From Acidimicrobiia bacterium (GTDB lineage: Bacteria; Actinomycetota; Acidimicrobiia; Acidimicrobiales; Poriferisodalaceae), in NCBI GenBank assembly GCA_022821985.1, contig JAJECP010000015.1, forward strand, positions 1 to 64,000: a stretch of 64,000 nt of DNA. The letters run 5' to 3'. The notes beneath the pieces are model-generated. The model was given only the letters and a program-made list of their open reading frames with translations, was not told the DNA's origin and searched no databases. How positions within the stretch are numbered: position 1 is the stretch's first letter; every line of letters begins with the position of its first letter. Positions 10,322-64,000 of the stretch are shown here, piece after piece. The position numbers and the translations under genes are program-made.

Positions 10322-10528
10322 ATGGGCCGCTGGGTCGACACCGATGACCTAATCGACGCGCAAGGCGTTGCGGACCTCCTCGGACTCGCGCAGCGCAACA
10401 CGGTGTCGTCGTATCAACGCCGCTATTCGGACATGCCGAGATCGGTGGTCGATCTCGGGAAAGGCCGCTGCAAGATGTGGCTACGTTCAGAAGTGCTCCT
10501 CTGGTCGGCGAAGCGTCAGGCGCGGTGA
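10322..10528 (+). CDS. Small helix-turn-helix DNA-binding protein upstream of the methyltransferase
   Basis: The 68-residue protein contains DLIDAQGVADLLGLAQRNTV and SSYQRRYSDMPRSVVDLGKG, followed by RCKMWLRSEVLLW. This is the layout of AlpA/excisionase-like winged-helix domains: a helix-turn-helix, a basic wing, and a final helix ending in W. Its TGA overlaps the ATG of the DNA methyltransferase by one base (TGATG), so the two are translationally coupled. It may act as a controller of restriction-modification expression or as a remnant element regulator. This role is inferred from position only. Confidence 0.6.
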   Translation: MGRWVDTDDLIDAQGVADLLGLAQRNTVSSYQRRYSDMPRSVVDLGKGRCKMWLRSEVLLWSAKRQAR

Positions 10529-12246
10529 TGGATGTCACAGGCGTCAGCGATGCTGCGGAGATGGGCACACAAACGCTCATCGAACGTCACCGCGCCAACC
10601 CGGCCAAGGCGGGTGGGGTGGTGTATACGCCGCCTGCCCTCGCACGATTTCTGGCTGCACAGGCATTCGATGCCTACGAGGGAGTCGGCCCCGTCAGCAT
10701 CCTCGACCCGGCATGCGGCGACGGCGAGTTGCTCGTCGCTGCGGTGGCTGAGGCCGGACGACGCAAGGTCAGGGTCGAAGCCGTCGTTGGCTACGACATT
10801 GACGCGGATGCCGTCGAGCGCGCATCAACACGACTGGCTGAGACGAGAGGCGTCCAACTTCACGTCGCCGACTTCATTGCTCAGCAGGCCAAGTGCAGTC
10901 GACATCGGGATCTGTTTGACATGGATCGGCCGATTGAGTCTCTCGGCTTTGATCTTGTGATCTCGAACCCGCCGTATGTGAGAACACAAACTTTGGGATC
11001 GGACCACGCTCAGTCGTTGGGCAAGCGGTATGGGCTCACAGGAAGGGTCGATCTCTACCAGGTGTTCGCGGCGGCGATGATCCAGGCACTGGCACCCGGC
11101 GGCGCGATCGGGCTGCTCTGCTCGAACAAGTTCCTCACAAATCGAGCTGGCAGCTCGATGCGTCGGTTGTTGCTCAACGAGCTCGTGCTCCGTGAGCTAG
11201 TGGATCTTGGCGATACGAAGCTCTTCGAGGCAGCGGTGCTGCCGGTGATTGTCTCAGGGGTGCGTGCGCCCCTGTCTGAGAAATGCGTCGAGGCTCCGCG
11301 TTTCCGGGCTGTCTACGAAGTCAAGCCAGATCTGACTGTCTCGAAACCAAAGACAACACCAGTCTTGGAGGCACTGCGCGGGCGAGTTTCCGGACTCATC
11401 GAAGACTCAGGGCGGACCTTCGCTATTCGTGAAGGCCTCCTCGACGGTGATGCCGGCCCGGATCGACCTTGGAATCCCGTCGACGAAGAAACTCGGCGGC
11501 AATTCGAAGTGCTACGACGCTCGGAGACGATGGAGCTGGGGTCCGTCGGAAAGATCCGAGTTGGGATCAAGACGACCGCTGATTCCGTTTTCGTCCGTTC
11601 GGACTGGTCGCATCTTCCGGATGATCTACGGCCCGAGCAGGCATTGATCCGTCCACTCCTGACTCACCAAGACATCGAGCCTTGGTCCGCGGTCCCTGGC
11701 CAGCGGCAGATTCTGTACCCGTACCAGTCCAGCGATGGACGAGCGACACCCGTGGATCTCAGTTCATTCCCGCGCACAGCGGCCTACCTTGAGCAGCACC
11801 GCGACCAACTCGCAGGGCGAAAGTACGTCGTCGATGCCGGCAGACAGTGGTTCGAGATCTGGGTGCCGCAAAGACCGTCACTCTGGGCGAGACCGAAGGT
11901 GGTCTTCCCGGACATCGCAGACGAGCCCAGATTCGCCTTCGACAGCTCTGGAGCGATCGTCAACGGCGACTGCTATTGGGTCATCATCGAGGACGAGGAT
12001 TTGGCCGAGGTTGTGACGGCTGTGGGCAACTCGAGCTTCTGCACGTGGTTCTACGACCGGGCCTGCGGCAATTTTCTGTACGCCGGACGTCGACGATTCA
12101 TGACCCAGTACATGGAACGGCTGCCGATCCCCAAGCCAAGTCCTGGGCTCGCGGACGAGTTCCGAGCGATGCGCCGTGAGAACGCGCCCGATCATCTCGA
12201 TGCGCTCGTGTGGTCCTCGCTAGGCCTCGAACAAATCGGACGGTAG
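10528..12246 (+). CDS. Type II N6-adenine DNA methyltransferase (Eco57I/TaqI-like)
   Basis: The protein has 572 residues from the ATG at 10528, coupled to the HTH gene; an upstream in-frame ATG overlaps that gene and is less likely. SAM-binding motif I is ILDPACGDGELL (58-69) and the catalytic motif is SNPPY (146-150), which mark an amino-methyltransferase of the gamma/N6-adenine group. The C-terminal half has the TaqI-C-like target-recognition signatures IRPLLTHQDIEPW, RPKVVFPDIADEPRF and FCTWFYDRACGNFLYAGRRR. It protects host DNA from the convergent restriction enzyme encoded at 12220-13281, whose 3' end overlaps this gene by 27 bases. The recognition site cannot be predicted. Confidence 0.85.
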   Translation: MDVTGVSDAAEMGTQTLIERHRANPAKAGGVVYTPPALARFLAAQAFDAYEGVGPVSILDPACGDGELLVAAVAEAGRRKVRVEAVVGYDIDADAVERASTRLAETRGVQLHVADFIAQQAKCSRHRDLFDMDRPIESLGFDLVISNPPYVRTQTLGSDHAQSLGKRYGLTGRVDLYQVFAAAMIQALAPGGAIGLLCSNKFLTNRAGSSMRRLLLNELVLRELVDLGDTKLFEAAVLPVIVSGVRAPLSEKCVEAPRFRAVYEVKPDLTVSKPKTTPVLEALRGRVSGLIEDSGRTFAIREGLLDGDAGPDRPWNPVDEETRRQFEVLRRSETMELGSVGKIRVGIKTTADSVFVRSDWSHLPDDLRPEQALIRPLLTHQDIEPWSAVPGQRQILYPYQSSDGRATPVDLSSFPRTAAYLEQHRDQLAGRKYVVDAGRQWFEIWVPQRPSLWARPKVVFPDIADEPRFAFDSSGAIVNGDCYWVIIEDEDLAEVVTAVGNSSFCTWFYDRACGNFLYAGRRRFMTQYMERLPIPKPSPGLADEFRAMRRENAPDHLDALVWSSLGLEQIGR

Positions 12247-13281
12247 GGGAATTTGACGCTTCGAGTTCGTGACCAGGCCGCCGAACTGGACAAACTCATC
12301 AAAGAAGTCGGCACCGCTCGCAACCACAATCTCTGTGATCTCGGTTTCCCCTGACGGCATGATCTCGCCGTACGCAACCAGGTAACGCGCATCACAGTGC
12401 CGAAGGCCATAGCCGACCGCCACCGCCGGCCCGGTGTCCGTTGGCAAGACCAATCCAAGGTCAATGGTTGGCGAAGTCTGGAGCTTCACTTCCAAGGCTT
12501 GAGAAACAAGATCTGGCCACTGACCATGGTTGTCATGTCGGCCGACTCCCAACGCCGAAGTGACAGCTTCCTGCAACTGCTCACCGCGGACACGGTCCTG
12601 CTCTGCACCTACGGCTGGGAGACGCGAGCCAGCCAGCGCGAGCGCCCGGCTGTAGATCTCGGAGATCGCAAGAACCTCGCCCGGCACAGGCCGGGCACCA
12701 GAACTCTGCGCGGCGAGCACATAGGCGGAGACTAGTCCTGGTCTGAGAAGCCGAGTTAACGGGATCGTGTCGACCTCGCTGACCAGCGTCGAACCCGTAC
12801 GTCCGGGGATCCGCTTCGCTTGGAACTTGGAAGTCAGAGTCCCTGTCCGGTCCCACCGCGCTACCTGCTGGCCCCGAACCACCTTGACAGCCCGGACGAT
12901 TCCCAAGTCGTCAGGGCGAATCAGCACATACCTACGCTCGGGTGATACCTCCTGATTCCAGATCTGCAGGTTGTTGCTTACTTGGACATGAACATCGAGG
13001 TCTTGGCTTGGAAAGCGCGGATTGGTCCTCTTGAACGAGGCCGGAGGCCTATATCCGAGCGCCTCCGCGACGACCTGCTTGGCAACTTTGGACCGAGTTC
13101 GGATTGGGCCTGACACTTCTTGGCCCAATAGACGGTCCACGAGCAACGCCTCGAGTTCACCGTCCGAGAAGAAGAGTTCAGGATGCTCCAGGAGAACCGA
13201 GTCGTAGATCGAGTGACCGGACGCTCGGATCGCATTTGCGCGGCGTTGCGCCGAGTTCAGCAGGGGATTCACGGAAGCCAT
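12220..13281 (-). CDS. Type II restriction endonuclease, PD-(D/E)XK family
   Basis: The protein has 353 residues from the ATG at 13281 (MASVNPLLNSAQRRANAIRA). An alternative upstream start would add 16 poorly coding residues. Near the C-terminus WPDLVSQALEVKLQTS gives Pro256-Asp257 and Glu264-Val-Lys266, a classical PD-x6-EVK nuclease centre, followed by DLGLVLPTDTGPAVAVGYGL. The gene converges tail-to-tail with the N6-adenine methyltransferase and overlaps it by 27 bases, the common organisation of a type II restriction-modification pair. It should cleave unmethylated foreign DNA at the site the methyltransferase protects. The family is not one I can name; the enzyme call rests on the motif plus context. 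Confidence 0.7.
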   Translation of the reverse strand: MASVNPLLNSAQRRANAIRASGHSIYDSVLLEHPELFFSDGELEALLVDRLLGQEVSGPIRTRSKVAKQVVAEALGYRPPASFKRTNPRFPSQDLDVHVQVSNNLQIWNQEVSPERRYVLIRPDDLGIVRAVKVVRGQQVARWDRTGTLTSKFQAKRIPGRTGSTLVSEVDTIPLTRLLRPGLVSAYVLAAQSSGARPVPGEVLAISEIYSRALALAGSRLPAVGAEQDRVRGEQLQEAVTSALGVGRHDNHGQWPDLVSQALEVKLQTSPTIDLGLVLPTDTGPAVAVGYGLRHCDARYLVAYGEIMPSGETEITEIVVASGADFFDEFVQFGGLVTNSKRQIPLPSDLFEA

Positions 13282-13429
13282 GGCGCGACAGCATCGCGCG
13301 CGTCGGTGATCGCGACGCCAGTAAGCCACACGCGTTCGTCGTGCGCGTGGCGATGTTGCGCCCCATTGGCCAAGCCAGGCTGCCGAGTCCGACCCTCTGC
13401 CCGTCGCAGCCCGTCTCTACGGTTGGGGT

Positions 13430-13990
13430 GTGGCTGACAGGTCGGGGATCGAGTGGACCGAGGCGACGTGGAACCCGACCACGGGCTGCGATCGGGTGTC
13501 GCCGGGCTGCGACCGCTGCTATGCGCAGACGCTGGCCAAGCGGCTCAAGGCGATGGGGTCGCCGAAGTACCAGAACGACGGCGACCCGTCGACGAGCGGG
13601 CCGGGCTTCAGGCTCACCTTGCATCGGTCGTCGCTCGATGTGCCTCGACGCTGGAGCGCACCCCGCCTCGTGTTCGTGGACTCGATGAGCGATCTCCTTC
13701 ACGACGATGTGCCGCCGGGGTTCATCGCGCAGGTCTTCGAGGTGATCCGCGAGACGCCCCAGCACACCTACCAGGTGCTCACCAAGCGAGCGCAGCGGCT
13801 GAGCCGGATCGCACCTGAGCTCGACTGGCCGCCGAACCTGTGGATGGGCGTGAGCGTCGAGACTCGCCGATACCGGTTCCGCATCGACCACCTGCGCCAG
13901 GTTCCCGCAGCGGTGAGGTTCGTCAGCGCCGAGCCGCTGCTCGGCCCGATCGGCGAGCTAGGGCAACGGCGATGCTTCAGGGCGGAGTGA
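13430..13990 (+). pseudogene. 3'-truncated DUF5131 (phage Gp37/Gp68-like, three-Cys) gene
   Basis: The product starts VADRSGIEWTEATWNPTTGC from a GTG and has the diagnostic cysteine cluster GCDRVSPGCDRCYAQ, followed by SPKYQND and LVFVDSMSDLLHDDVP. It continues normally through TYQVLTKRAQRL, NLWMGVSVE and RFVSAEPLLGPIGEL, then ends after a dozen unrelated residues (GQRRCFRAE). Full-length relatives continue with a WVIVGGESG segment and are longer, so about the last third is missing. No continuation is visible in other frames, which places a recombination joint at about 13960. The family has a radical-SAM-like Cys cluster and is found on phages and in accessory regions. The gene is probably inactive. 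Confidence 0.7.
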
Positions 13991-14056: not shown

Positions 14057-14653
14057 ATGAGCGTTGCTAAGACGGTCCGTGAGCATGTCGAGCGCCTGCC
14101 GGTGCGGTCGTTTCTGTCGCGAAGCGACCTGCCGACACCAGGTCACGCAGTCGATTGCGAGCTGGCGCGGCTGGCAGGCCGGAATGAGCTGATGCGCGCC
14201 CACAAGGGCCTGTACTGGAAGGGGCCCCAGACACGGGCTGGGATGGTGCCTCCGGCGCCACTCGCGGTCGGGATGGCAGTAGCGGGCGCCGGGGCCGGCC
14301 CAGCTGGCTTCTCGGCTGCAACAGCACTGGGCTTGACGACGCAGGTTCCCTCTGTGGAGGCGGTGGCGGTTGCCGGCCGTGCTCATCGGCCTCCCCGAGG
14401 AGTGGTGTTTGCGGCGAGGTCTGTCGAGCGTCGGTTCCGGGAGCTGGAGCCGCTTGAAGTCGCCGTGATCGAGCTGATGCGCGACGGCACTCGATACGTC
14501 GAGGTCAGCTGGGACGATGTCGAGGCTGCTGTCGTAGGCCTGGTTGAGTCCGAAGCCGTCCGGCCGCGTGCGGTCTGCGAGCAGATCGACGACGAGCATC
14601 ACGTGGCAGCCCGCACACGCTGGCAGGCCATCGAACGTCGGCTCGGCTTGTGA
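14057..14653 (+). CDS. abiEi: AbiEi-type antitoxin (type IV toxin-antitoxin)
   Basis: The 198-residue protein has an N-terminal winged-helix (about 1-60: VREHVERLPVRSFLSRSDLP, CELARLAGRNELMRAHKGLYW). A larger C-terminal domain (about 65-198) has GFSAATALGLTTQVP and VEVSWDDVEAAVVGL. This is the layout of AbiEi-like antitoxins, which autorepress the operon and counteract AbiEii without binding it. Its TGA overlaps the GTG of the toxin gene by four bases (GTGA), so the two are translationally coupled. The upstream gene is a truncated DUF5131, so the AbiE pair probably arrived with its own promoter. The family call is good; phage-abortive activity is known for the family and not shown here. Confidence 0.78.
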   Translation: MSVAKTVREHVERLPVRSFLSRSDLPTPGHAVDCELARLAGRNELMRAHKGLYWKGPQTRAGMVPPAPLAVGMAVAGAGAGPAGFSAATALGLTTQVPSVEAVAVAGRAHRPPRGVVFAARSVERRFRELEPLEVAVIELMRDGTRYVEVSWDDVEAAVVGLVESEAVRPRAVCEQIDDEHHVAARTRWQAIERRLGL

Positions 14654-15594
14654 GCTTCCGACTGCGCGACGACCTGGACGAACTAGCGGCGTACGCGAGC
14701 GCGGTGTCAGATGTGTCGGGGATCCCTGCGTCACATGTGGAGAAGGATTACTGGGTGACCGAGACGCTGCGGGGTGTCGCGGAGGTCTCGCGCCGCAACG
14801 GCTGCTCGGTGATCTTCAAAGGCGGGACGAGCCTGTCGAAGGCGCATCGGCTCATCGAGCGTTTCTCCGAGGACGTCGACCTCTTGATTGTGCTGCCGGA
14901 GGCTGGCAAGAAGCGGCGCGACGGCATGCTCAAGGAGTTCATCGCAGGAGCCGAAGCGGCGACCGGCATCGAGGGCCGTCTGGACGTCGCAACGGCCACA
15001 GCAGGTGTCAAGCGTTCGGTGAGGCTGCACTATCCGACGGCAGCGCCGAGCGAGGGCGTGACCAGCGGAGTCTTGCTCGAACTCGGAACTCGCGGCGGTG
15101 CCCTGCCGTGCGATCGGCGACCGATTCAATCTCTCATCGCCGAGTATTCCCAGCGAGCCGGCCTCGCCTCTGACTTCGAAGAGGTCGAGCCGATTTCATT
15201 GCTCGTGTTGGATCCTGTTCGCACGCTCGTCGAGAAGATGATGATCCTGCACCACGCGGCGACCGACGGGGACTCCGAACGGCGCCGCCAGACTGCGCGC
15301 CATTACTACGACGTTGATGCGCTGCTGCGGAGCCCTGCCGTCATGAGCAGCCTCGAACAGCACGAGACCGATGTGCTTGCTCGTGAAGTTGCACGGCACT
15401 CGATGGCTGCGGGCCTTCCCAGCATCGACCGGCCACCGGCTGGGTTCTCTGCCAGCCCAGCCTGGCGGGAGGATCAGCCGGACATCGAGCGAGCTTACGA
15501 AGATGTGCTCGAACGGCTTGTGTGGCCGAGTGCGCTCACGTCAGCGTTCGCGCAATGCTGCCAACGCGTACACGATCACGCGCACCTGCTCTGA
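14650..15594 (+). CDS. abiEii: AbiEii-type nucleotidyltransferase toxin
   Basis: The protein has 314 residues from a GTG that overlaps the antitoxin stop. Motifs of the AbiEii/MenT nucleotidyltransferases are all present: VEKDYWVTE (30-38), FKGGTSLSKAHRLIERFSED (56-75) with the Gly-Gly-Thr-Ser loop and Lys64, then EDVDLLI with Asp75 and Asp77. Further along, PISLLVLDPVRTLVEKMMIL and ARHYYDVDALL match the family pattern. These toxins transfer nucleotides to acceptors such as tRNA and stop growth. With the preceding AbiEi gene this is a complete type IV system. The substrate is unknown. Confidence 0.82.
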   Translation: MSFRLRDDLDELAAYASAVSDVSGIPASHVEKDYWVTETLRGVAEVSRRNGCSVIFKGGTSLSKAHRLIERFSEDVDLLIVLPEAGKKRRDGMLKEFIAGAEAATGIEGRLDVATATAGVKRSVRLHYPTAAPSEGVTSGVLLELGTRGGALPCDRRPIQSLIAEYSQRAGLASDFEEVEPISLLVLDPVRTLVEKMMILHHAATDGDSERRRQTARHYYDVDALLRSPAVMSSLEQHETDVLAREVARHSMAAGLPSIDRPPAGFSASPAWREDQPDIERAYEDVLERLVWPSALTSAFAQCCQRVHDHAHLL

Positions 15595-55661: not shown

Positions 55662-57581
<1,920 letters not shown>

Positions 57582-59562: not shown

Positions 59563-60909
59563 ATGGCTTCACAGCAGCGGCATCCGTTCCGGCTGAGGTG
59601 GCTGCCATCTCGACGGATCGCGAGCGGCGTGATTCAAGCCGCGGTGGCCGCAGCCCTCGCTTTCGTCGCGCTCGGCTGCTCGGACACGTCATCCAGCGAC
59701 GACGAGTCCGCTACCGAGGCACCCGCCACGAGCACCGCCGCGCCCGCGACAACCGCTGCCTCGGCAGAGGCGCCGGCGACGACGCTGGCGATTATCCCGC
59801 TGCGGGTCGAACAGATCCCAGGCGACCCGCCCGAGGTCACCGTCTCGGCGCTGCGCGACGGCATCTCGGCGCCGCTGCTGCCTGAGCCGCTGGTCTCGCC
59901 GCTCGACATCATCTCCGGCGGGCCGCCGCCCGACGGCATCCCCCCGATCGAGGTGCCCGAATTCGAGCGAGCCTCCGAGGTCGGCTACCTGCAGCCCCAA
60001 GAAGCCGTCGTGACGCTCACCCTCAACGGCGACGCCCGCGCCTACCCGGCGCAGGTGATGATCTGGCACGAGATCGTCAACGACACTGTCGGCGGGGAGC
60101 CGGTCACGGTCACCTTCTGCCCGCTGTGCAACACTGCCATCGCGTACCACCGCCGGCTCGGCGACCGCACGTTCGACTTCGGCACCTCGGGCAAGCTCTA
60201 CAACTCCGCACTGGTCATGTACGACCGCCAGACCGAGAGCCTGTGGACGCACTACACCGGCCAAGCCATTGCCGGGGCGCTCACCGGGGCCCAGCTCGAA
60301 CTGATCCCGATGGCGACGGTGGCCTTCGAGACCTTCTTGGCGGAGCATCCCAACGGGCTCGTCTTGAGTCGCCCCGGCGGCTTCGGGCGGTCATACGGCA
60401 CCAACCCCTATGTGAACTACGACACGCCCGATGGCAACCCCGACTTCTTCGCCGACGTGCCCGACGGTCGACTGCCGCCGCAGACCCGCGTGCTGGTCAT
60501 CCGGCACGGCGGGGGCGTTGCCGCAATCGTGCACGACACGCTGCAATCCGAGGGCGTCATGACGGTCGATGTCGGCGGCACCGAGGTCGTGGCCTTCCAC
60601 CTGCCGGGCACCGCAACACCGATCCAGAACCCCCAGGTGGCCTTCGGCCGGGACGTGGGCGCGACGGCCGTCTATGACCCGACGGTGGACGGTCAGCAGC
60701 TCACGTTCGCTCGCAAGCCCGATGCTGCGAGCTCGGCGGAGCCCGGAGCGTTCGTCGACGATCAGACGGGTTCGACATGGTCACTGCTCGGCCGCGCCCT
60801 CGACGGCCCGCTGGCCGGAGCGCAGCTCGCACCCATCGAGCACATCGACACGTTCTGGTTCGCAGCAGCCGCCTTCGACCCCGACCTCCAGCTCCTCGAC
60901 ACCCCGTAA
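59563..60909 (+). CDS. DUF3179 lipoprotein
   Basis: The 448-residue protein has a Lys/Arg-containing N-terminus, signal helix IQAAVAAALAFVALGC with lipobox Cys39, and a Ser/Thr/Ala linker to about 75. DUF3179 landmarks follow: YLQPQEAVVTLTLNGDARAY, QVMIWHEIVNDTVGGEPVTV, TFCPLCNTAIAY with the CPLC motif, TSGKLYNSALVMYDRQTESL and WTHYTGQAIAG. The C-terminal half repeats a RTLVIRHGG/ DDQTGSTWSLLGRALDGPLA pattern typical of the longer members. It is paralogous to 21098-22684. It is a secreted lipoprotein, and its location immediately before the sterol-methyltransferase gene (31 bases) suggests a shared transcript. Confidence 0.85.
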   Translation: MASQQRHPFRLRWLPSRRIASGVIQAAVAAALAFVALGCSDTSSSDDESATEAPATSTAAPATTAASAEAPATTLAIIPLRVEQIPGDPPEVTVSALRDGISAPLLPEPLVSPLDIISGGPPPDGIPPIEVPEFERASEVGYLQPQEAVVTLTLNGDARAYPAQVMIWHEIVNDTVGGEPVTVTFCPLCNTAIAYHRRLGDRTFDFGTSGKLYNSALVMYDRQTESLWTHYTGQAIAGALTGAQLELIPMATVAFETFLAEHPNGLVLSRPGGFGRSYGTNPYVNYDTPDGNPDFFADVPDGRLPPQTRVLVIRHGGGVAAIVHDTLQSEGVMTVDVGGTEVVAFHLPGTATPIQNPQVAFGRDVGATAVYDPTVDGQQLTFARKPDAASSAEPGAFVDDQTGSTWSLLGRALDGPLAGAQLAPIEHIDTFWFAAAAFDPDLQLLDTP

Positions 60910-60939: not shown

Positions 60940-61965
60940 ATGCCAATCCGGCTCTCACAGATTCTCAGACGATCCTTGGATCCCGAAGACGTCGAGTCGA
61001 GCGTCGGTGCGCACGAAAGCAGTTTCGACTTCGGGCGTCGCAAGGGTCGAGACCGGCGGGCCACCCATCACCGGGGCTTTGTAGAGAACTACTACGACCT
61101 CGCGACCGATCTGTACGAGTACGGCTGGGGTGAGTCGTTTCACTTTGCTCCGCGGGTTCCCGGCGAGAGCCGTCGTGCGTCGATTGCGCGACAAGAGCAC
61201 CTCTTTGCACTCAAGCTCGGCCTGCAGCCCGGCATGCGCGTCGCCGACTTCGGCTGCGGCATCGGCGGCCCGCTGCGGGAGATCGCCCGCTTCTCGGGGT
61301 CGCAGATCGTGGGAATCAACGTCAGCGCGTACCAGATCAGGCGCGCGGTTGCCTATACCGAGGAGGCAGGGCTCAGCCATCTCGGGACCTACCTCGAATC
61401 GGACTTCACCGACATCGACGAAGCGGACGAGTCATTCGATGCCATCTACGCGCTCGAGTCGACGTGCCATGTGCCCGACCGCGTGGACGTTTTCGCCGAA
61501 GCGTTCCGCCTGCTCAAGCCGGGCGGCTGCTTCGCGTCGCACGAGTGGTGTCTCACGGATCGATTCGACACGGGCAACTCGCATCACCGGCAGCTCAAGC
61601 ACGACATCGAGCTCGGCGCCGGGCTGCAGGACATCATCTCGCTGCACGAGGTGGATGCCGCCTTGGACAAGGTCGGCTTTGAGGTGCTCGAAGCACTCGA
61701 CATGGCCGATCAAGCCGGGCCGTCGATCCCGTGGTACGAGCCCCTGGCCGGTCCCAAGCTGTCGCTGACAGGCCTCAGGAGCTCCCGTGCCGGGCGATCG
61801 GCGACCCACACGATCCTCCGGGCGCTCGAAGCGCTTCGGGTCGTGCCGCGCGGCACATCGGGAGCATCGCGAATTCTGAACATCGGCGGGGCTGCCCTCG
61901 CAGAATCGGGGCAGCTGCAGATCTTCACCCCGCTGTACTTCGTGCTCGTGCGGAAGCCGGCGTAG
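60940..61965 (+). CDS. Sterol C-24 methyltransferase-like (Erg6/SMT family) enzyme
   Basis: The 341-residue protein follows eukaryotic SMT closely. Region I is YYDLATDLYEYGWGESFHFA (51-70), the SAM-binding motif is VADFGCGIGGPLREIARFSG (101-120), and the family's ALESTCHVPDR, SHEWCLTDRFD, LGAGLQDI and PWYEPLAGPKLSLTGL segments follow in order. In yeast Erg6 and plant SMT these residues bind SAM and the sterol side chain. The reaction would be transfer of a methyl group to the C-24 double bond of a sterol, or to a close isoprenoid analogue. It precedes, convergently, a sterol-desaturase-type gene pair. A palindrome sits in front of its start. Bacterial SMTs have been described in sponge- and sediment-derived genomes, so the call is plausible but the substrate is not proven. 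Confidence 0.85.
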   Translation: MPIRLSQILRRSLDPEDVESSVGAHESSFDFGRRKGRDRRATHHRGFVENYYDLATDLYEYGWGESFHFAPRVPGESRRASIARQEHLFALKLGLQPGMRVADFGCGIGGPLREIARFSGSQIVGINVSAYQIRRAVAYTEEAGLSHLGTYLESDFTDIDEADESFDAIYALESTCHVPDRVDVFAEAFRLLKPGGCFASHEWCLTDRFDTGNSHHRQLKHDIELGAGLQDIISLHEVDAALDKVGFEVLEALDMADQAGPSIPWYEPLAGPKLSLTGLRSSRAGRSATHTILRALEALRVVPRGTSGASRILNIGGAALAESGQLQIFTPLYFVLVRKPA

Positions 61966-63118
61966 CCGGTCGCCCGGCGCTGCCGCCCAGAGCGCCGAAT
62001 ACGGCGTACAGGGCGGCGATTCCCGCGAGCACCAGACCGCTGACGACGGCGACGTAGGCCGGGTAGTTCGAGTGCTCCTTGCCGCAGACGGTGTACCACT
62101 GCACGTCATGCGCAGGAGGCGTGGTGCACGCAAACGTGAAGTCCTCCGCGTAGTCCTCCACGCACAGGTACTTGTCGCGCGTGTTGCCGGTGATGTCCGA
62201 TTCTTCGACACCGCAGGGGCCGGGCACCTGATGCAGACCGCTGCTCACGTGGGTCTCCGGCGCGAAGAACGCCATGCAGATGACCAGAGCGATCAGGTAG
62301 GCGGCAGCTCCGCGCCCCAGCCAATCCACCGGTTGCCCCTCCGGACGCGCAGTGCGGCGCCCCAGGAAGGAAACAGCGCCGTAGATGACCGCCCCGGTGC
62401 AGAACGCGACCAGTCCAGGCGTTCCCCCGTCGAGCAGCTGCAGAACGAACATCTGCGCCATCATCAACGGCGTCGTGATGCACGCAGTCAGCACGATGTC
62501 GGCGACGAAGCGCCGCCTGGTGACAAAGCTCTGCTGGGTGACATCGTGGCCGCGCAGGACCAGATCGAGCAGCAGCGCGAATGAGCCGGTGAACGTGAGC
62601 ACCCACAGGCTGCTGCTCAGCGGGGCCCCGAAGAGCCGGTCCGCTATGGCGGGATCGGTGTCATGCCATGTCCACCAGAGGAACTTGGCGCCGACGATGT
62701 CGTAGGGCGCGTACAGCACCACCGCCACCAGTCCGGTGAGCGCCGCGGCCGACCACCGCCCCAGTCCGAGACGACGGATGCCGACCGTCGGCCAGTACAG
62801 GAAGACGATGTACACGCACGGGATGTACAGCGGCAGGCGCGGGGTGATCATGATGGTCGCCTGGGCCTGCCAGAAGGTGTCGACGACCGGCAGCGCCATG
62901 AAGATCACGTCGTTGGCTGTGCCCGTGATGAGCGCGGCAACCCAGGTCAGCCGGTCTTTGCGCCCGGCGCGGACAGCGTGGATCAGCGCCAGCACTGCGC
63001 ACGCGATGATGACGTACTCGCCGATCAGGAACGTCGGCTGGTTGGCCCACTGCTCGGCGGGGCTGGTGAACGTCTTCCAAGGAAGGTCTGGCGACACCTC
63101 CCACGGCAGCGTTCTCAC
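61925..63118 (-). CDS. Polytopic membrane protein with conserved WWTWHDTDP motif
   Basis: The protein has 397 residues from a GTG. About nine membrane helices are visible: FLIGEYVIIACAVLALIHAV, LPLYIPCVYIVFLYWPTVGI, LTGLVAVVLYAPYDIVGAKF, and others. A loop between helices 4 and 5 reads KFLWWTWHDTDPAIADRLFG. I recall this WWTWHDTDP-type motif from uncharacterised membrane proteins of animals (DUF7802) and some bacteria, but not a function. A Cys-rich luminal loop lies near the end (GPCGVEESDITG, YLCVEDYAEDFTFACTTPPA). It overlaps the methyltransferase tail-to-tail by 41 bases and follows the sterol-desaturase-like gene by 15 bases, so it is co-transcribed with that gene. Confidence 0.6.
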   Translation of the reverse strand: MRTLPWEVSPDLPWKTFTSPAEQWANQPTFLIGEYVIIACAVLALIHAVRAGRKDRLTWVAALITGTANDVIFMALPVVDTFWQAQATIMITPRLPLYIPCVYIVFLYWPTVGIRRLGLGRWSAAALTGLVAVVLYAPYDIVGAKFLWWTWHDTDPAIADRLFGAPLSSSLWVLTFTGSFALLLDLVLRGHDVTQQSFVTRRRFVADIVLTACITTPLMMAQMFVLQLLDGGTPGLVAFCTGAVIYGAVSFLGRRTARPEGQPVDWLGRGAAAYLIALVICMAFFAPETHVSSGLHQVPGPCGVEESDITGNTRDKYLCVEDYAEDFTFACTTPPAHDVQWYTVCGKEHSNYPAYVAVVSGLVLAGIAALYAVFGALGGSAGRPATPASARARSTAG

Positions 63119-63133
63119 TGTCGGAACGTCCGC

Positions 63134-63958
63134 TCAGTACCTGACGAACGGTTCGAGTTCGCGCCCGGCGACGGCATCGCTGAGGTCTCGTTTGCCGCGC
63201 CCGCCGAAGACCTCTGGGCCGTAGCGCCTGCCGTGCCTGCGCAATGTGCCGTGCAGCCGGTCCCAGATCAGCAGATGCTGGCCGAAATTCACATGGACAT
63301 GGGCGTGATGGTCATCGTGAAACTGCGCCGGCGGCTGCCACGGCAGCACCGACTCCAGCTTGACGCCGGAATGGCCAGCGACGTTGTAGACAACGATGTA
63401 CAGCAACACGCCGACGACAGACAGTGCATGGAAGGGAATGACGAGCAGCGGTGCCAGTGTGGCGGCTTGCAGCATCAGCAGTTCCGCCGGGTGCATTGCC
63501 ATCGTCACGTAGGGATTCGTCGCGACGAACCGATGGTGAAATCGGTGCACGTGGCGGAACATGAACCGTGTGTGCAGTAGGCGGTGCACCAGGTAGGCGA
63601 TGTATTCGGCCAGCAGGAACAGCAAGACGGTGGAGCCGACCGTGTACGCCCAACCGCCCCAGCTCGTGACATCGGTGTAGATGGGCGCGTCGAGGTTGCC
63701 GCTCGCGATGGCGTAGATCAGTGCGCCGCTCAGCAGGCCGCTCAGCAACATGTTGCGGGTGCTGGCCCAAACGGCGAGGCGGTGAAGCTCCGGCGACAGG
63801 AAACGGTCAGGCTGCAGCTTCCACGATTGCGCTGTCGAGGGCTGCCGGACGTAGTACCGGAAGTAGAAGTAGCCGGCAACCGCGTGATACGTGACAATGC
63901 CCGCGAGGCTGGCGCCGCCGATGCACGCAATGAGGAGGCTCCAGTCGACCCCTCCCAT
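63134..63958 (-). CDS. Fatty acid hydroxylase / sterol desaturase family membrane protein
   Basis: The 274-residue protein has four membrane helices and the three histidine boxes of the superfamily. They are HRLLH (125-129, Hx3H), HRFHH (138-142, Hx2HH) and HDDHH (214-218, Hx2HH), plus extra His at 136, 220 and 222. These bind a di-iron centre that uses O2 to hydroxylate or desaturate lipids; family members include sterol C-5 desaturase, C-4 methyl oxidase and fatty acid hydroxylases. The start is the ATG at 63958 after GGACGGAG. It is the first gene of a two-gene operon that converges on the sterol-methyltransferase-like gene. The substrate is likely a sterol or other polycyclic isoprenoid. 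Confidence 0.85.
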   Translation of the reverse strand: MGGVDWSLLIACIGGASLAGIVTYHAVAGYFYFRYYVRQPSTAQSWKLQPDRFLSPELHRLAVWASTRNMLLSGLLSGALIYAIASGNLDAPIYTDVTSWGGWAYTVGSTVLLFLLAEYIAYLVHRLLHTRFMFRHVHRFHHRFVATNPYVTMAMHPAELLMLQAATLAPLLVIPFHALSVVGVLLYIVVYNVAGHSGVKLESVLPWQPPAQFHDDHHAHVHVNFGQHLLIWDRLHGTLRRHGRRYGPEVFGGRGKRDLSDAVAGRELEPFVRY

Positions 63959-64000
63959 GTCGATCGCTCCGTCCCGCGCCGATCCTCGGCGCTAGTCGTC

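Follow-up and report, generated by a model that had tools for sequence, protein, structure and literature searches.

SMT-A, a 341-residue sterol 24-C-methyltransferase (SMT) homologue encoded on the plus strand at 60940..61965 of the window (the whole 64,000-nucleotide stretch of DNA analyzed here), is probably a SAM-dependent sterol C-24 methyltransferase of a genus that tailors acquired sterols, and the hydroxylase/DUF7802 gene pair beside it most likely stands apart from this function. Family membership, intact motifs, purifying selection, genus-wide co-occurrence of SMTs with sterol reductases, and the lack of any detectable oxidosqualene cyclase (OSC), hopene cyclase or squalene epoxidase were observed directly.

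SMT-A and its relatives

The earlier note had proposed an Erg6-like methyltransferase at position 60940, and this assignment is borne out by the Sterol_MT_C domain, SMT regions I–IV, and the place of the protein in the tree. All three genes read there are open over their full spans (341, 397, and 274 aa). Pfam located Sterol_MT_C (PF08498) at residues 277–340 of SMT-A (61768..61959, plus strand; E 3.4e-19, 69.2 bits against a cut-off of 21.7), and class I SAM methyltransferase domains were matched as well (best E 4.5e-19 among the Pfam methyltransferase families). In the alignment with yeast Erg6, SMT-A matched up at region I, YEYGWGESFHF (residues 59–69; 61114..61146), at the SAM-binding motif of region II, DFGCGIGGP (residues 103–111; 61246..61272), at region III, ALESTCHVP (residues 171–179; 61450..61476), and at region IV, EWCLTDRFD (residues 202–210; 61543..61569), all on the plus strand. 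SMT-A shares 40% identity with Erg6 and 45% with plant SMT1, and regions I–IV and the C-terminal domain are common to all three; SMT-A differs from both in sitting in a bacterial clade without eukaryotic rows. Across 37 SMTs, residues D103, G105, C106, G107, G110, and P111 of the SAM motif and E173 and P179 of region III are invariant, and SMT-A keeps every invariant column as well as the canonical region I. No mention of Erg6 Y81F was found in open-licence PMC papers.

The AlphaFold2 model of SMT-A (pLDDT 85) showed a class I SAM methyltransferase fold in Foldseek. Its closest PDB neighbours, both by sequence and by fold, were natural-product or small-molecule methyltransferases, and 6f5z, the one matched chain titled '24-sterol C-methyltransferase', was hit over partial length at E 1e-8. 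As the best 50 rows of the fold search held class I methyltransferases and no SMT by title, this search does not decide the substrate. The dN/dS of SMT-A was 0.12–0.23 (10 pairs from five of the eight SMT-A genomes), and SMT-A, like the DUF7802 and hydroxylase genes, looks protein-coding and under purifying selection. A scan for promoters and terminators returned three terminator-like sites, with 1.5 expected by chance, and no promoter-like sites; a plasmid search with the SMT at E ≤ 1e-20 gave one partial match (30%).

Bacterial C-24 methylation, described as rare in the earlier note, is less so: functional bacterial SMTs active on desmosterol have been published, according to the passages of Brown et al. 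(2023; PMC10070321) cited here, and one scan recovered at least 561 relatives at E ≤ 1e-3, other methyltransferases included. In a tree with bootstrap and SH-aLRT values, SMT-A groups with 25 further bacterial SMT rows inside a clade of 28 rows (the A-clade; support 100/100) that contains no non-SMT row. It thus did not fall among small-molecule methyltransferases, the outcome that had been named in advance as speaking against an SMT, in a tree whose named rows included no tocopherol or UbiE-type enzymes. The hosts of the A-clade belong to at least five phyla among the matches listed, and several are sponge symbionts. Eukaryotic rows fall outside this clade, and their own placement is poorly supported. 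The genus contributed three of eight SMT-A, three of eight SMT-B, and both SMT-C sequences; five of its loci from the SMT scan (L053–L057) were omitted as duplicates. Eight of 19 non-SMT loci were used, and two long-branch non-SMT rows were dropped beforehand. Six non-SMT rows, on very long branches, were split between lineage B (four rows, 81/81) and the second SMT of the myxobacterium Sandaracinus (two rows, 50/0). As they join at two places, the tree does not fix the root or boundary of the SMT family.

Methyltransferases and sterol reductases across the genus

The genus is an uncultured acidimicrobial lineage, probably sponge-associated; named Acidimicrobiia MAGs correspond to five of the ten sister genomes, of which two bear jk18x and three p16x names. 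SMT genes were found in all 11 genomes, one or two in each, and fall into three lineages overall (A, B, and C); the source genome of SMT-A carries a second SMT. Orthologues of SMT-A occur in seven sister genomes at 85–99% identity, one of them split across two contigs. In SMT-B, region I reads LMIYGWG, without the residues YE. Among 50 relatives outside the genus there was no SMT-grade match, the best reaching E 5e-20 and 34% over partial length, and PF08498 was detected in one of 396 genomes of the phylum, namely that of SMT-A itself.

Sterol reductases of the ERG4_ERG24 family (PF01222) showed the same restriction, being present in 10 of the 11 genus genomes, with three or four copies each (three in the source genome), and in none of the 50 other relatives. 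Two of the three reductases of the source genome have 4quv, a delta-14 sterol reductase, as their closest solved structure (E 2e-43 and 2.6e-28). The SMT and reductase genes of this genome are spread over contigs C12, C1, C27, and C22, so no operon joins them; in one sister genome (contig G010:C9), SMT-C and a reductase lie about 8 kb apart.

Two further neighbours accompany SMT-A in all eight of its loci. Directly upstream is a gene for a DUF3179 protein (59563..60909, plus strand), and a gene for a Baeyer-Villiger-type flavin monooxygenase lies nearby (55662..57581, minus strand; truncated in G001, where the contig ends). PDB matches of the latter include 5mq6 (E 3e-104), phenylacetone monooxygenase, and the steroid monooxygenase 4ap3 (E 2e-79), from which a role in steroid or ketone metabolism may be suggested as a lead only. 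By eye, the contigs seem to hold many acyl-CoA, F420, and flavin oxidoreductases.

The monooxygenase and the oxidoreductases bear on a serious rival explanation, namely that the SMTs and reductases serve the catabolism of sponge or dietary sterols, altering double bonds or the side chain either ahead of breakdown or in its course. The monooxygenase, with 4ap3 among its matches, and the seeming plenty of oxidoreductases would both suit such a route. Available portions of the literature point the same way, reporting steroid degradation genes in two actinobacterial sponge MAGs (PMC5790920) and a bacterial 8,14-sterol reductase, treated as a protein apart, that is prevalent in sterol-degrading Mycobacteriales (PMC13277303). 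However, a SAM-consuming addition of carbon at C-24 should hinder degradation of the side chain, and an SMT would therefore not be expected in a purely catabolic route. We consider catabolism unlikely, although it is the rival to be taken most seriously, and favour tailoring of acquired sterols.

The hydroxylase and DUF7802 genes beside SMT-A

The gene at 63134..63958 (minus strand) encodes a 274-residue protein of the di-iron FA_hydroxylase/sterol-desaturase superfamily. The superfamily, which the earlier note had given as a sterol desaturase/hydroxylase with three His boxes, was confirmed by PF04116 (E 7e-24) and by the histidine clusters HRLLH, HRFHH, and HDDHH read by eye. The hydroxylase gene lies 15 bp upstream of a gene for a 397-residue protein (61925..63118, minus strand), which converges with SMT-A such that the 3' ends overlap by 41 bp. 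This protein is polytopic by eye, as had been said; the partner described as having no known role belongs to a family already named, DUF7802 (PF25085, E 3.7e-51), whose function is unknown. Weak matches to DUF7802 were found in four other genomes of 396 and in the control genome of Methanosarcina acetivorans, and there was no plasmid match at E ≤ 0.01 and no PDB match at E ≤ 1. The mean pLDDT of its AlphaFold2 model was 33.8, and no fold was therefore inferred. For the hydroxylase, no PDB match was obtained at E ≤ 0.001, and four plasmid records were matched at 27–35%, three of them annotated 'sterol desaturase family protein'.

The minus-strand run that includes this pair extends past the window. 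It continues with a ferritin-like gene, of which the 3' end occupies 63992..64000 and which runs to position 64474 of the contig (L003:3992-4474), and with BFD (L003:4543-4773) and an iron-dependent repressor (L003:4947-5636) successively upstream, all on the minus strand. The hydroxylase pair probably shares an operon with these genes.

The earlier note had read SMT-A, the hydroxylase, and DUF7802 as one functional locus modifying a sterol or similar isoprenoid. The genes are adjacent and convergent, and the pair is intact beside SMT-A in five of the eight SMT-A genomes. The hydroxylase gene or a close copy occurs in five of 11 genus genomes, these being five of the eight with SMT-A versus none of the three without it, numbers too small to decide. 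Outside the genus, hydroxylase-like genes near an SMT were limited to two weak matches in 75 loci among the matches listed: one of 29% identity in L132, where a B-clade SMT lies about 160 bp away, and one of 28% in L127, at a distance of about 2 kb from the SMT there. Against a single locus, SMT-A and the pair lie on opposite strands, which precludes co-transcription, and the pair continues the ferritin/BFD/iron-repressor run. In three of the eight SMT-A genomes (G005, G006, and G008), the pair has been lost wholly or partly at three different break-points, whereas SMT-A was retained. DUF7802 was near none of the 75 non-genus SMT loci among the matches listed, the flanks of which were often shorter than 10 kb. 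Purifying selection is also weaker on the pair (dN/dS 0.29–0.51 for DUF7802 and 0.20–0.35 for the hydroxylase, six pairs each) than on SMT-A. A consistent genomic link between the hydroxylase and sterol genes thus fails, both across the 75 listed loci and in view of the deletions within the genus. Following these synteny, deletion, and cross-lineage comparisons, we rejected the three genes as a functional unit, a reading that now seems very improbable; most probably, the hydroxylase and DUF7802 genes are iron-linked neighbours outside the sterol function of SMT-A.

Probable origin of the proposed sterol substrate and comparison with known systems

The window had been noted to contain no squalene epoxidase or OSC gene, and this holds for the source genome and the whole genus: searches of all 11 genomes, the source genome included, gave no match to the oxidosqualene/hopene cyclase family PF13243 or to the squalene epoxidase family PF08491, and PF13249 was likewise missing from the source genome. 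The PF13243 search did detect OSCs in genomes outside the genus. Completeness was 89.9% for the source genome and 84–98% for its sisters, with 9 of the 11 at 90% or above; as the genomes are incomplete, failure to find a gene does not prove its absence, but it is unlikely that the same genes were missed in all 11. The substrate had been supposed to be either made by the cell or taken up from a host; given these absences, uptake is the better reading, and synthesis by the cell itself is disfavoured.

The family as a whole is tied to sterols by OSC-like genes in the flanks of approximately 24 of 80 SMT-homologue loci among the matches listed; these were simple gene calls, made on a DCTAE motif in 22 of the 24 and otherwise on several QW-like repeats, and many loci had less than 10 kb of flank on one or both sides. 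Class I methyltransferases vary widely in their substrates, and SMT-A might instead methylate a non-sterol isoprenoid, such as another polyprenoid or a secondary metabolite. Among the matches listed, 16 of 23 A-clade host genomes outside the genus carry hopene-cyclase-like genes and only four carry an OSC, which leaves 19 without a detectable one and makes room for a non-sterol substrate (a further weak cyclase-type match, in G458 at L194, was under the cut-off). The altered region I of SMT-B would also fit. However, SMT-A itself is canonical in region I and departs from none of the invariant SMT columns, and within the genus the SMTs are accompanied by sterol reductases that the 50 other relatives lack. 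A hopanoid substrate was rejected for this genus, where PF13243 is absent, and could still apply to other A-clade hosts. We therefore regard a non-sterol substrate for SMT-A as quite unlikely. De novo sterol synthesis by genes missed in incomplete assemblies or by enzymes of another type, to which OSC-containing sterol clusters reported for some Ircinia Acidimicrobiia (in the cited parts of Kelly et al., 2022; PMC9531527) lend some colour, is scarcely credible given the absence of both families from 11 genomes, and was rejected for the source genome.

If SMT-A tailors an acquired sterol, it would bind a delta-24 sterol of the desmosterol type, and SAM would methylate C-24, followed by a 1,2-hydride shift and proton loss that would yield a 24-methyl(ene) sterol. 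Further alkylation, or action on a different substrate, might fall to the remaining SMT lineages of the genus. Double bonds of the ring or side chain would next be reduced by the ERG4/ERG24-type enzymes, of which there are three or four per genome. The sterol would probably be drawn from the sponge, from what the sponge eats, or from cyclase-bearing symbionts. That the substrate is a sterol of exogenous origin, and the product and order of steps as given, are what we infer.

More tentatively, and with rather more doubt than confidence, A-clade SMTs could be C-24 alkylases of a cyclase-free sterol-remodelling guild that spans at least five phyla, has hosts mostly without a detectable OSC, and is a fixed trait in this genus. 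If so, the host or cyclase-bearing symbionts would make the ring system, which cyclase-free symbionts would alkylate and reduce, and some of the 24-alkyl sterols taken for sponge biomarkers would originate in bacteria that do not make sterols. Side-chain alkylated steranes serve as evidence of early animals, and symbionts may account for part of the sterols of sponges. A genus with SMTs and reductases and no detectable sterol synthesis makes symbiont remodelling of host sterols testable with few proteins. It also cautions that an SMT gene in a genome is not by itself evidence of de novo sterol synthesis.

Bacterial SMTs, including those of sponge symbionts and Ircinia MAGs, are already published, and SMT-A adds to that kind. 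No open-licence PMC paper was found that links Poriferisodalaceae or Acidimicrobiia with 'sterol methyltransferase' or reports an assay of any enzyme from this genus. In the cited passages of PMC10070321, 24 metagenomic SMTs were tested, an OSC was present in the cluster or MAG for 13, and host sterol was suggested for a Chlamydiae SMT without OSC; the stems Actinobacteri and Acidimicro are absent from its main text. Those SMTs and SMT-A share a common family and catalytic regions, and in part come from sponge symbionts. The present case differs in that no cyclase or epoxidase was found in a whole genus, which combines three SMT lineages with sterol reductases numbering three or four in each genome. 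PMC9531527, in the parts cited, found SMT1/ERG6 and TM7SF2/ERG24 enriched, and often scattered, in Ircinia symbiont MAGs. The jk18x names of two sister MAGs are of the series used in that study, whereas its main text has no mention of p16x. The parts cited present these genes as belonging to steroid biosynthesis alongside OSC clusters, and describe no cyclase-free set of genus-wide extent like the one found here. Sterol reductases are also known, from the cited parts of PMC9666466, in sponge Chlamydiae without sterol synthesis, with Coxiella cited there. Those bacteria and this genus have in common sterol-tailoring enzymes without known sterol making, but here the reductases occur together with SMTs, the genus is actinobacterial, and there are several copies per genome.

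Phylogenetic placement of the methyltransferase

The gene at 60940–61965 (plus strand) encodes a 341-residue protein, SMT-A, which the earlier note proposed to be an Erg6-like sterol C-24 methyltransferase (SMT). Pfam analysis revealed a Sterol_MT_C match (E 3.4e-19) together with several class I methyltransferase families; no NCBIfam model matched at or above its cut-off. Alignment with yeast Erg6 showed that SMT-A retains regions I (YEYGWGESFHF), III (LESTCHVP) and IV (EWCLTDRFD) as well as the SAM motif (DFGCGIGGP), and columns W63, H68, F69, D103, G105–G107, E173, P179, T206 and W265 are among those invariant in 37 aligned SMTs. An AlphaFold2 model built from this alignment adopted a class I methyltransferase fold (mean pLDDT 85). 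The closest structures among the best 50 PDB rows were TleD, MitM, AtmM and RebM, and no SMT by title was among these 50. By sequence, 6f5z ('24-sterol C-methyltransferase') matched SMT-A with an E-value of only 1e-8 in the PDB and was outscored by several natural-product methyltransferases.

Scanning GTDB genome contigs gave at least 591 stretches, and relatives (E <= 1e-3) are encoded on at least 561 of these, a figure that also counts other methyltransferases. The analysis retained the best 80 of these at least 561 loci; five belong to the window's genus and the remaining 75 to other lineages. A 98-row tree placed the window SMT inside a 28-row clade (bootstrap/SH-aLRT 100/100), hereafter the A-clade, which quick trees supported at 99 and 100. 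It holds 3 genus rows and 25 rows from 23 other loci, assigned to Chloroflexota (15), Pseudomonadota (3), Actinomycetota (2), Gemmatimonadota (1), Nitrospinota (1) and no phylum (1). None of the six non-SMT rows fell inside this clade; they joined at two other places on very long branches, one beside lineage B (81/81; see below), so the tree does not fix where the SMT family is rooted. The joint placement of three eukaryotic rows was poorly supported. SMT-A shares 56% identity with its best outsider, 45% with AtSMT1 and 40% with Erg6, and 25–34% over partial length with the non-SMT rows. The proposed gene is thus present, and its domain, motifs and nesting among SMTs in the suggested phylogeny make a strong case, at the level of sequence, for SMT assignment.

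The same-genus loci among the best 80 belong to two jk18x and three p16x isolates titled Acidimicrobiia bacterium; six and two, respectively, of the 23 non-genus A-clade loci carry these isolate names. The jk18x names are used in a study of the symbionts of Ircinia sponges (PMC9531527), in whose main text p16x is absent. Because genus members share the jk18x names, the genus is very probably sponge-associated.

Genes around SMT-A

The earlier note had combined SMT-A with a polytopic protein and a sterol desaturase/hydroxylase into a candidate three-gene sterol locus; the latter two are a DUF7802 protein (61925–63118) and a hydroxylase (63134–63958), both on the opposite strand. Past the window end, the strand of this pair runs on into ferritin, BFD and iron-dependent repressor genes. 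DNA-level comparison showed that the pair is kept in sister genomes G001, G002 and G009, and both genes are also kept in G003. At the DNA level, window positions 61997 to 63973 are entirely missing from G008, only 63775–63837 is kept between SMT-A and the ferritin gene in G005, and G006 retains sequence up to 62284 plus 62894–62970. Because the break-points differ, these data suggest three separate losses of the pair, each sparing SMT-A. DUF7802 was found at none of the 75 non-genus SMT loci (from the best 80 of at least 561 relatives), and the hydroxylase had two weak matches there, at L127 (28%) and L132 (29%). The run into iron genes, the losses and the DUF7802 result together argue against the three-gene locus. 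Counting the other way, no close hydroxylase copy was found in the three genus genomes without SMT-A (G004, G007 and G010), which could reflect a link, common ancestry or the region having been lost as a whole. Three genomes from a single further family of the phylum (f57) hold distant DUF7802-like proteins (L135–L138, ~25–28% identity), each gene adjoining a reading frame of ~310–390 aa that looks similar by eye.

A DUF3179 protein gene (59563–60909, plus strand) lies directly upstream of SMT-A in 8/8 loci. Near the window start, a gene resembling Type II DNA methyltransferases (PADLOC E 2e-162) and a DUF5131 gene matching candidate defence models (10525–13990, plus strand) occur together with an AbiEi/AbiEii-like pair (14402–15594, plus strand; PADLOC AbiEi E 2e-9, AbiEii E 3e-53; Pfam AbiEii E 8e-31), which suggests a putative defence or mobile region.

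Sterol methyltransferases and reductases across the genus

SMT homologues (E <= 4e-68) were detected in 11/11 genus genomes, the copy of G001 being split over two contigs, and seven carry two SMTs. Three separate tree groups were recovered, namely lineages A (100/100; 8/11 genomes), B (99/98; 8/11) and C (100/100; 2/11); the B group also holds L132 and a second copy of L074. G001 has an additional SMT fragment not assigned to a lineage, and the B match of G003 contains one TAG, downstream of which the called gene begins. Outside the genus, the best match in 50 relatives (26 from its family and 24 from its order) reached E 5e-20 at 34% over partial length, and such matches are probably other methyltransferases. 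PF08498 (Sterol_MT_C) was detected in 1 of 396 genomes sampled from the phylum, namely the window's own.

In 8/8 loci (four by gene clustering, four by eye), lineage B has an MFS transporter gene on one side and an F420-type oxidoreductase gene on the other, a run that includes the second SMT of the window's genome (G000:C1:121122-122027; L006:1113-2153). The transporter and oxidoreductase genes also enclose lineage C in G007, along with two additional small reading frames. Genes resembling dnaA, dnaN and gyrase by eye lie ~10 to 20 kb from the own B copy, and this locus is therefore probably near the replication origin. Region I reads LMIYGWG (twice) or FMLMGWG in the three B rows of the tree and LYEYGWG in A. 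The Y missing from B is Tyr81 of yeast Erg6, which affects product range, so lineage B may give another product or use another substrate.

ERG4/ERG24-type reductases (PF01222) were found in 10/11 genus genomes and in 0/50 other relatives; G001, the exception, is also the least complete (84%). Eight genomes carry three full-length copies; G006 and G010 carry four, and G002 has a fragment in addition. In the window's genome, one copy (G000:C27:16031-17074; L155:9996-11078) has a 4-bp overlap with an SDR gene; the others form a tandem pair (G000:C22:66490-68718; L156:9416-11722). PDB searches with two of these three gave matches to delta-14 sterol reductases (4quv), and dN/dS among the copies compared was 0.07–0.24.

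The search of the remaining genome for squalene epoxidase and oxidosqualene cyclase (OSC), as the earlier note had advised, found neither. SQHop_cyclase_C (PF13243), a profile that does detect OSCs in other genomes, and squalene epoxidase each matched 0/11 genus genomes, nine of which are >=90% complete, and SQHop_cyclase_N had no match in the window's own. This cyclase-free, genus-wide set of putative sterol-tailoring genes is our main finding.

Sterol source and comparison with known systems

By motif, OSC-like genes flank 24 of the 80 loci (the best 80 of at least 561 relatives); of the 28 tree rows from these, 20 fall in a single 27-row clade separate from the A-clade, and L077 is the sole A-clade locus among them. 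At this alphaproteobacterial locus (L077:1207-9518), three consecutive SMTs from two SMT clades adjoin the OSC-like gene. PF13243 was further searched in the whole genomes, of unstated completeness, of the 23 A-clade hosts and one B-clade host; the latter (G474) had no match. OSCs with the DCTAE motif were found in four A-clade hosts (G451, G469, G470 and G473) and in none of the other 19 of the 23. Hopene-cyclase-like matches above 400 bits occur in 16/23 (L168–L183, L187), of which 14 showed no OSC and two (G451, G473) have both; the DxDDTA motif was not seen in four of these genes (L168, L176, L179 and L183). Five hosts had neither cyclase type, with only a sub-cut-off match in G465.

The main rival explanation is sterol catabolism. 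Degradation genes are reported for two sponge actinobacterial MAGs (PMC5790920), and a Baeyer-Villiger-type monooxygenase gene (55662–57581, minus strand) is conserved near SMT-A in 8/8 genus loci, the closest solved structures of its product being 5mq6, phenylacetone monooxygenase and steroid monooxygenase. Tailoring of acquired sterols is the most likely role of the SMT/reductase set, by analogy with published bacterial SMTs and reductases. PMC10070321 reports in vitro methylation of desmosterol by bacterial SMTs from sponge metagenomes, some of which go on to C30 products, and activity of an SMT from a Chlamydiae genome that has no other sterol genes, for which host sterol use is suggested. 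Sterol reductases also occur in sponge Chlamydiae (PMC9666466), and enrichment of SMT and sterol reductase genes in bacteria of Ircinia had already been reported (PMC9531527). No earlier description of such a genus-wide, cyclase-free setting was found in the accessible text of open-licence PMC papers.
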